A stretch of 64,000 bases of DNA, from NCBI GenBank assembly GCA_001464475.1, contig LNDX01000017.1, positions 1 to 64,000 of the forward strand, given 5' to 3'. Every line of letters begins with the position of its first letter. Within the stretch, counting starts at the first letter, position 1. The notes below the pieces were generated by a model. It saw nothing but the letters and a program-made list of their open reading frames with translations. It did no database searches and had not been told where the DNA came from. Source of the stretch: Flavobacteriaceae bacterium Ga0077528. Lineage in GTDB: Bacteria > Bacteroidota > Bacteroidia > Flavobacteriales > Flavobacteriaceae. A program made the translations under genes and the position numbers. Shown piece after piece: positions 6,153 to 6,305 of the stretch.

Positions 6153-6237
6153 GACAATCTACATTAAAAGTGTAGCACTCTACCAATTGAGCTATCTCGT
6201 TTTATTGACGAGAGCAGGACTCGAACCTGCAACAAAC
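6153..6237 (-). tRNA. Circularly permuted tRNA-Lys(TTT)-like unit
   Basis: Read on the minus strand, the 3' part comes first. The T arm GCAGG-TTCGAGT-CCTGC (6214-6230) and acceptor strand TCTCGTC (6207-6213) are followed by a 5-base spacer. Then comes acceptor strand AACGAGA (6195-6201), D arm GCTC-AATTGGTA-GAGT (6177-6192), and anticodon arm CTACA-CTTTTAA-TGTAG (6159-6175, anticodon TTT). The two acceptor strands pair at six of seven positions. Joined in normal order these parts would give a complete tRNA-Lys cloverleaf broken in the variable loop. Alternatively these are chance remains of two ordinary tRNAs. Confidence 0.45.
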
Positions 6238-6305
6238 TATTGTTCTATCCACTGAACTATCCGCTGTAACAGAGTGGGATTCGAACCCACGACCTATAGA
6301 ATGAC
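6232..6305 (-). tRNA. Circularly permuted tRNA-like unit, split in anticodon loop
   Basis: The 3' part is first: anticodon-stem strand CTAT (6296-6299), T arm GTGGG-TTCGAAT-CCCAC (6274-6290) and acceptor strand TCTGTTA (6267-6273). The 5' part follows directly: acceptor strand CAGCGGA (6260-6266), D arm GTTC-AGTGGATA-GAAC (6242-6257) and anticodon-stem strand ATAG (6237-6240). Acceptor strands pair at six of seven positions counting two wobbles, and ATAG pairs with CTAT. The anticodon identity cannot be read because the break falls in the loop. It abuts the permuted Lys unit. Confidence 0.4.

Follow-up and report, generated by a model that had tools for sequence, protein, structure and literature searches.

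The locus and its surroundings

The window, i.e., the whole stretch of 64,000 nucleotides that was analysed (contig LNDX01000017.1 of Flavobacteriaceae bacterium Ga0077528), carries a long conserved noncoding region upstream of a gene for a Band_7/SPFH (slipin) protein, both of them situated in an island of RNA-repair genes. The features of the locus, numbered from the first letter of the window, are the following:

4608..5708, minus strand: gene of the Band_7/SPFH (slipin) protein (Pfam Band_7, 1.5e-26)
5877..6123, minus strand: conserved 3' domain of the RNA, ending TTCCGTC...GGTTTTTTTATT (conservation in 80 upstream regions)
6124..6151, minus strand: H-type pseudoknot, AGAG..CTCT with GCAT..ATGT (anchored search)
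6159..6230, minus strand: module 2, permuted tRNA mimic with anticodon arm (covariation of T arm and acceptor columns, fold); T arm 6230-6214, acceptor hairpin 6213-6195, D arm 6192-6177
6175-6159, minus strand: anticodon arm of module 2, loop CTTTTAA, anticodon TTT
6237..6299, minus strand: module 1, permuted tRNA mimic closed by CTAT/ATAG, without anticodon loop (comparison and fold); T arm 6290-6274, acceptor hairpin 6273-6260, D arm 6257-6242
6306..6327, minus strand: hairpin GATTATTTTCCAAAAAATAGTC between 5' domain and module 1 (94.4% paired, double changes in 5 of 7 pairs)
6335..6426, minus strand: 5' domain, a long stem with two inner hairpins (RNAalifold, 46 sequences)
7401..7798, minus strand: tRNA genes Phe, Leu, and Asn, a spare tRNA array that is short here (ARAGORN, Rfam)
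9488..10603, minus strand: second RlaP-family nucleotidyltransferase (Pfam 1.2e-23)
14793-15620, minus strand: RlaP nucleotidyltransferase (Pfam 1.8e-75)
15764-17185, minus strand: RtcB RNA ligase (Pfam 6e-82)

An earlier note on this DNA had placed two tRNA-like units at 6153-6305 in an RNA-repair island with rtcB, and Pfam indeed identifies RtcB and two RlaP genes. The strand of the RNA also encodes HamA and HamB (Hachiman) and a HIRAN protein, and a WYL regulator diverges. The Hachiman pair HamB/HamA lies at 10593-14776 within the RNA-repair island, and a cytochrome c protein is encoded at 8755-9516 amid the repair genes. A 106-aa protein that matches nothing in Pfam (6707-7027) recurs close to Band_7, in 19 of 80 loci. 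In locus L142, 15 ordinary tRNA genes precede the RNA (array coordinates 71-1282), compared with 11 in L148 (46-1111), 9 in L145 (79-1136), and 7 in L144 (20-922).

As far as the accessible parts of the sources go, the repressor TrcR of Anabaena controls an operon of 26 tRNAs together with rtcB and is relieved under translational stress, with a slipin gene in the table of affected genes (PMC10272220), and PaFlo8 of Pseudomonas lies in the rtc locus (PMC13086221).

Architecture of the RNA

Conservation across 80 upstream regions, the window's own included, spans about 6432-5877 on the minus strand (~550 nt), and modules 1 and 2 are, as judged from this comparison, parts of a predicted RNA of ~550 nt that reaches from 6426 to ~5877. 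The first half of the core (6299-6159, minus strand) reads CTAT / T arm / TCTGT[TACA]GCGGA / TA / D arm / ATAG, and the second half reads T arm / TCTCGT[CAATAAA]ACGAGA / TA / D arm / CTACA-CTTTTAA-TGTAG. This bears out the earlier reading of two adjacent permuted units on the minus strand, in which the order T arm, closed acceptor hairpin, D arm occurs twice, the acceptor ends are sealed by hairpins with TACA and CAATAAA loops, one unit (module 1) has an anticodon-like stem of ATAG and CTAT, and the other (module 2) has the anticodon arm of a tRNA-Lys(TTT), with the loop CTTTTAA. One detail required correction: the proposed pairing of TCTGTTA with CAGCGGA at six of seven positions would leave no loop. 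The single-sequence fold is a helix of 5 bp with a 4-nt loop, and the five acceptor columns of module 1 are paired in 99.7% of the cells among relatives.

Folded as a single sequence, the region forms the T arms and acceptor hairpins of both modules as well as the anticodon arm, but only one of the two D arms. Its folding energy is unremarkable (z -1.5); the evidence for the module structure is comparative and comes from the relatives. ARAGORN called no tRNA at 6153-6305 when run on the window; its three calls there are the Phe, Leu, and Asn genes at 7401-7798. The best non-tRNA match in the Rfam scan was YrlA at 6252-6147, with 40.2 bits vs. a cut-off of 69. Weak Rfam tRNA matches also occur at the modules, and one of them (29.4 bits) bridges two units, running from the D arm of one into the T arm of the unit that follows; families other than YrlA and tRNA were absent from the matches to Rfam 15 at E <=1 over 6440-5870.

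The flanking parts are likewise structured. For the 5' domain, an alignment of the window with 45 of 60 extracted sequences was used, in which RNAalifold predicts 22 pairs, 12 of them changed on both sides (46 sequences). The pseudoknot emerged from an anchored search, a free pseudoknot search having yielded noise; its second stem (score >=4) is kept in 24 of 28 distinct loops, whereas 1000 re-pairings retain it in 13.5 on average and in 21 at most. A scan for intrinsic terminators after the 3' domain and before Band_7 detected none. Two direct repeats of 92 nt that are 91% alike (6447-6630) lie immediately upstream of the RNA, and the interval between the RNA and the Band_7 gene contains a short tandem repeat with copies spaced 14 apart (5780-5871).

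Covariation of the module pairs

Compensatory changes, which the earlier note had proposed to seek in related genomes, are present. Among 66 sequences of Flavobacterium, the 28 module pairs are paired in 98.8% of 1848 cells (84.0% in shuffles), and pairing falls to 35-43% when the partner is slid. Double changes occur in 18 of the 28 pairs and affect 284 cells vs. 70 in shuffles, a value reached by 0 of 500 shuffles; for a weaker measure, which considers further pair types, 5 of 500 shuffles attained the observed value. The result extends to 51 sequences of several genera, where, with one extra hairpin counted, 98.0% are paired (38-53% when slid) and double changes occur in 19 of 25 pairs (228 double-changed cells vs. 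55 shuffled). Kinship alone can beat shuffles without any structure, but it is an unlikely source of the covariation, because pairing drops in the slid controls and because up to six pair types occur at a single module pair.

Left out of the Flavobacterium alignment are nine loci whose module 1 has a D arm of the GGCG type, L044 (which lacks sequence), L058, L068, and L070 (fewer than two T loops), and the duplicates L095 and L106. The cross-genus alignment drops three of 53 chosen sequences (L152, L058, and L037), and its extraction had covered 68 of 102 loci. A strict module pattern found 136 modules in 72 of 79 loci within a fixed interval (-620..-200). It occurs once in 1580 shuffled regions and not at all when the 79 loci are read on the reverse strand. 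Outside the interval, the same loci gave 31 matches in 960 kb, and the 25 that were listed include tRNA-gene junctions and RNAs just beyond the interval.

Linkage to the Band_7 gene and distribution

Relatives were collected with the Band_7 protein of the window as query, and the best 80 of 162 stretches encoding relatives were taken. Sequence search found the RNA in 74 of these 80 loci; among the other six, five carry it on reading and one is a contig that starts 65 nt before the gene. Thus, among the best 80 of 162 stretches, all 79 loci with upstream sequence carry the RNA ahead of the Band_7 gene. The module parser, applied to the 800 nt upstream, identified one module in six of these loci, two in 71, and three in two, i.e., at least one in every locus, whereas seven of the 79 show no module in the fixed interval (-620..-200). 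Among 106 regions parsed in total, one had no module. Both sets of module counts contain a few ends of ordinary tRNAs that lie at the border of a region, as in L142, L143, and L205. Of 80 loci, only 10 have rtcB and 5 have rlaP within about 6 kb of Band_7; because rtcB is so rarely near, the tie of the RNA to the ligase is looser than its tie to Band_7.

In a sample of 199 genomes of the genus, 42 have a match at E 1.1e-15 or better that begins no later than position 8 of the query. The weaker matches listed are mostly confined to 36 nt in the region of the D arm and anticodon and probably represent ordinary tRNA genes. A plain DNA search of 299 genomes of the family finds 23, the window's own included. 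Band_7 adjoins the RNA in 21 of 22 loci from other genera, the exception (L158) having the 5' domain only. Among 345 genomes of the phylum, the RNA model R1 matches 19, of which 14 have the RNA beside Band_7. The Band_7 protein itself was detected (E 1e-50) in 19 of the 345 genomes, namely the 14 of R1 and five more distant ones, which possess T arms and closed acceptors upstream (the D arm of L203 is doubtful). Three R1 matches (L177, L181, and L183) were rejected as tandem ordinary tRNAs on reading. The match in L180 is an RNA linked to Ro, as is probably that in L178, whose weak TROVE match (19.2 bits) is below the Pfam cut-off of 23; L179 is a further R1 match outside the 14 Band_7 genomes.

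Plasmid-borne slipin relatives with 36-43% identity were also read for an upstream RNA. Ahead of the slipin gene of Citrobacter, E. coli, and Subdoligranulum stands an RNA with a T arm, a closed acceptor, and a degenerate D arm; in Citrobacter it has rtcR on one side and slipin on the other, followed by a nucleotidyltransferase gene. Slipin operons of enterobacteria with reduced tRNA-like RNA are found in L184 (7553-8000) and L186 (5475-6003), and both contain TGGCACGC..GCA, which we take to be a sigma54-like site. Even the most reduced forms (L184, L186, L185, and L203) retain the T arm and the closed acceptor hairpin. The tRNA-like units of Burkholderia (L187), by eye, are in ordinary order, and the parser found no closed-acceptor module there except a chance match of four pairs; that these units look un-permuted argues against permutation being a rule for the whole class. 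One tRNA-like unit of L187 (5600-5780) has, by eye, a GAAA tetraloop in place of an anticodon loop.

Turnover of modules and anticodon loops

Modules turn over by loss, gain, and replacement. They are lost in L068 and L070, and three are present in L159 and L160; in nine loci, module 1 is replaced by a permuted unit with a GGCG-type D arm, and in four regions the first module carries the anticodon TAG (Leu). The anticodon loops across species correspond to Lys, Leu, Phe, Tyr, Met, and Asn, among others, identities that are held with reserve; loops reading GAA and CAA could come from a hairpin of their own that follows module 2. A tally from the count of seven-nt hairpins is distorted by overlapping hairpins and was not used for identities.

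The combination of U33 with a purine at position 37 occurs in 124 of 200 seven-nt hairpins, compared with about one in six in mononucleotide shuffles, i.e., at about four times the share, and at least one such arm is present in 84 of 103 distinct regions. Module 1 has no anticodon loop in most loci, and the anticodon arm is absent from L182, L203, and the enterobacterial forms.

Predicted resemblance of the Band_7 protein to vault proteins

The predicted model of the Band_7 protein has a mean pLDDT of 80.0 and a pTM of 0.56. Three beta repeats are joined in it to an SPFH domain and a long helix. This predicted order, at a pTM of 0.56, fits that of the elements of MVP, in which a single chain combines beta repeats, an SPFH shoulder, and a long cap helix. 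Stomatin is the best structural match for the SPFH part, and the matches that reach back to the first beta repeats are vault proteins. One of these, 9bw5_A, aligns to residues 4-350 of the model (pTM 0.56) with 253 aligned positions (Z 11.4, rmsd 4.3) and is not the top hit. The predicted protein would therefore resemble a vault protein along its length, and like the eukaryotic vault it would have an RNA partner, but it is far smaller than the vault protein. Vault RNAs are not known to be tRNA mimics.

Proposed function and alternative explanations

Since relatives retain, exchange, or add tRNA mimics ahead of the same gene, the RNA may act as a decoy or docking site in tRNA damage and repair. 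Given the architecture of the RNA, its covariation, its linkage to Band_7, and the swapping of its modules, we lean with modest confidence towards a noncoding RNA of ~550 nt that is the putative RNA of a vault-like Band_7 repair particle, with the sealed tRNA mimics as docking site or decoy. The RNA would work with the vault-like slipin encoded just downstream. The T arm and the sealed acceptor minihelix are proposed as the docking surface of a Band_7 ring or cage because they are kept in the smallest forms, and the docked partners may be tRNA-handling proteins such as RtcB or RlaP, or tRNA-cutting toxins. Because its acceptor end is closed, the mimic could not be charged or used in translation; it might be housed in the particle to serve as a decoy or as a reference tRNA. 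Variation in the anticodon arms would add specificity, perhaps as bait, and let the RNA catch a broader set of tRNA-cutting enzymes, and the spare tRNAs upstream, together with RtcB and RlaP, would restore the tRNA pool. The RNA of Burkholderia L187, un-permuted by eye, does not fit and counts against this explanation. An extended version is tentative: a vault-like cage carrying sealed tRNA dummies that can be exchanged, with module swaps keeping their anticodons up to date, may possibly form a putative multi-specific toxin trap or sensor beside spare tRNAs and repair ligases.

It is rather unlikely that the anticodon arms serve as bait or tripwire, such that their cleavage by anticodon nucleases unlocks the RNA and either frees or activates the Band_7 particle or sends a signal through the regulator of the operon, while evolution changes the anticodon set. 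The enrichment of seven-nt loops with U33 and R37, the differences in anticodon loops between species, the swapping of whole modules (such as that with TAG in L047), and the presence of Hachiman genes in the same island are all consistent with such a role. According to the accessible part of a study of Salmonella, the rtc operon is switched on by broken tRNAs and YrlA is suggested to be a competitor of the nuclease, yet YrlA fragments were not seen (PMC7790460). A pure anticodon bait does not explain all the observations, because module 1 is mostly loop-free and because some RNAs (L182, L203, and the enterobacterial forms) have no anticodon arm at all.

A cis-acting leader, in which the modules form part of the mRNA of Band_7 and control it when they bind a tRNA enzyme or damaged tRNA, is improbable. 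It would account for the shared strand, for the end of the RNA ~170 nt before the start of Band_7, for its position upstream of Band_7 in every readable locus, and for the failure to detect an intrinsic terminator between the two. However, the length and complexity of the RNA and the versions with three modules look like a processed stable RNA, as does the start of the 5' domain directly after a tRNA 3' end in L149, L156, and L163.

Relationship to YrlA and to other Band_7-linked RNAs

The earlier note had regarded a pair of permuted units in a bacterial RNA-repair island with rtcB as new, but the topology is already known from YrlA, a bacterial Y RNA, which the accessible part of the source describes as a circular permutation of tRNA with the order T arm, closed acceptor, D arm (PMC11472068). 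The modules in the window share this order with YrlA (Rfam RF02553); they differ in their tandem arrangement, their anticodon arms, and the flanking domains of the RNA. YrlA pairs with Ro/Rsr, whereas the RNA described here is associated with a Band_7 gene in a genome without Ro: a search for TROVE (Ro) gave no matches in this genome and a match in one of 14 control genomes (Deinobacterium). The YrlA structure 6CU1 reportedly relates to work by Chen (2014) and Wang (2018).

That the RNA is a Y RNA of the YrlA type bound by Ro/Rsr is very improbable. YrlA is the best non-tRNA match in Rfam and has the same permuted module, but the YrlA family search gave matches, none over the cut-off, also in 7 of 14 control genomes, so that weak matches by themselves are worthless. 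Moreover, the Ro-linked RNA of L180 scores 43.0 bits for RF02553, likewise below the gathering score of 69, and because this compares with 40.2 bits in the window, the cut-off does not separate Ro-linked from Band_7-linked RNAs. In addition to the absence of a TROVE gene from the genome, the comparison with a congener argues against a Y RNA. In that Flavobacterium genome, an RNA with tRNA-like modules lies between the genes for Ro (TROVE 3.2e-27) and RtcB. This Ro-linked RNA (L207, reverse strand about 8350-8760, and L180) carries four copies of an element GTGCCGT..AAG..TACTTCGT; L178, from another family, looks similar. This fourfold element, which presumably binds Ro, was absent from the window when sought at three mismatches. 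Ro-linked and Band_7-linked kinds both occur in one genus, and their partners and flanking parts differ.

A "novel tRNA-like molecule" associated with Band-7/SPFH proteins in RNA-repair operons was reportedly announced by Burroughs and Aravind in 2016. The RNA of the window would then be a variant of that molecule and not a new kind, as the family of the partner gene and the class of operon are the same. It differs in having up to three permuted modules, often with anticodon arms, and in its covarying 5' domain, pseudoknot, and spare tRNA arrays. In the literature covered (titles and abstract openings, with few subscription papers), tandem permuted tRNA modules before Band_7 genes were not described.

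Permuted tRNA genes and tmRNA

The permuted tRNA genes of algae and archaea, to which the earlier note had likened the two units, also have the 3' half ahead of the 5' half; they yield tRNAs, whereas the units here are sealed modules with capped acceptor hairpins in a far longer RNA. According to the part of the source available, such genes mature via a bulge-helix-bulge junction (PMC3978253). Circularisation of the transcripts and their maturation into functional tRNAs, known from red algae and archaea, are likewise very improbable here. Unscrambled, module 2 is a tRNA-Lys(TTT), and an ACCA is retained after the acceptor strand in L152 and L160, which suggests that the permuted units arose where tandem tRNA copies join. 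Against maturation, the module 1 acceptor in the window has 5 bp and a TACA loop, and neither module of the window has a CCA. The parser found acceptor stems of fewer than seven pairs in 97, a CCA after the acceptor in 3, and GNRA caps in 43 of 154 modules from 79 loci, a few of which are ordinary tRNA ends. The genome has an ordinary tRNA-Lys(TTT) elsewhere, and some modules have no anticodon. Decayed remnants of a tRNA array, for which the ordinary tRNA genes close by might speak, can be dismissed in view of the strong compensatory change across many species.

In tmRNA, which also occurs in a two-piece permuted form, a tRNA-like part and a pseudoknot are combined in one RNA, as they are here. 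A search for tmRNA gave no match at the site in the window; the best match in relatives reached 20.7 bits vs. a cut-off of 47 and was thus not near it, and an identity as tmRNA was rejected.

Implications

The analysis provides a covariation-backed architecture for a large RNA that lacks an Rfam family of its own. It links vault-like proteins of bacteria, predicted as such by the structural model, to tRNA mimicry, and it makes the role of RNAs in RNA-repair operons directly testable. Permuted tRNA mimics occur in two settings, one linked to Ro and the other to Band_7, within a single genus.
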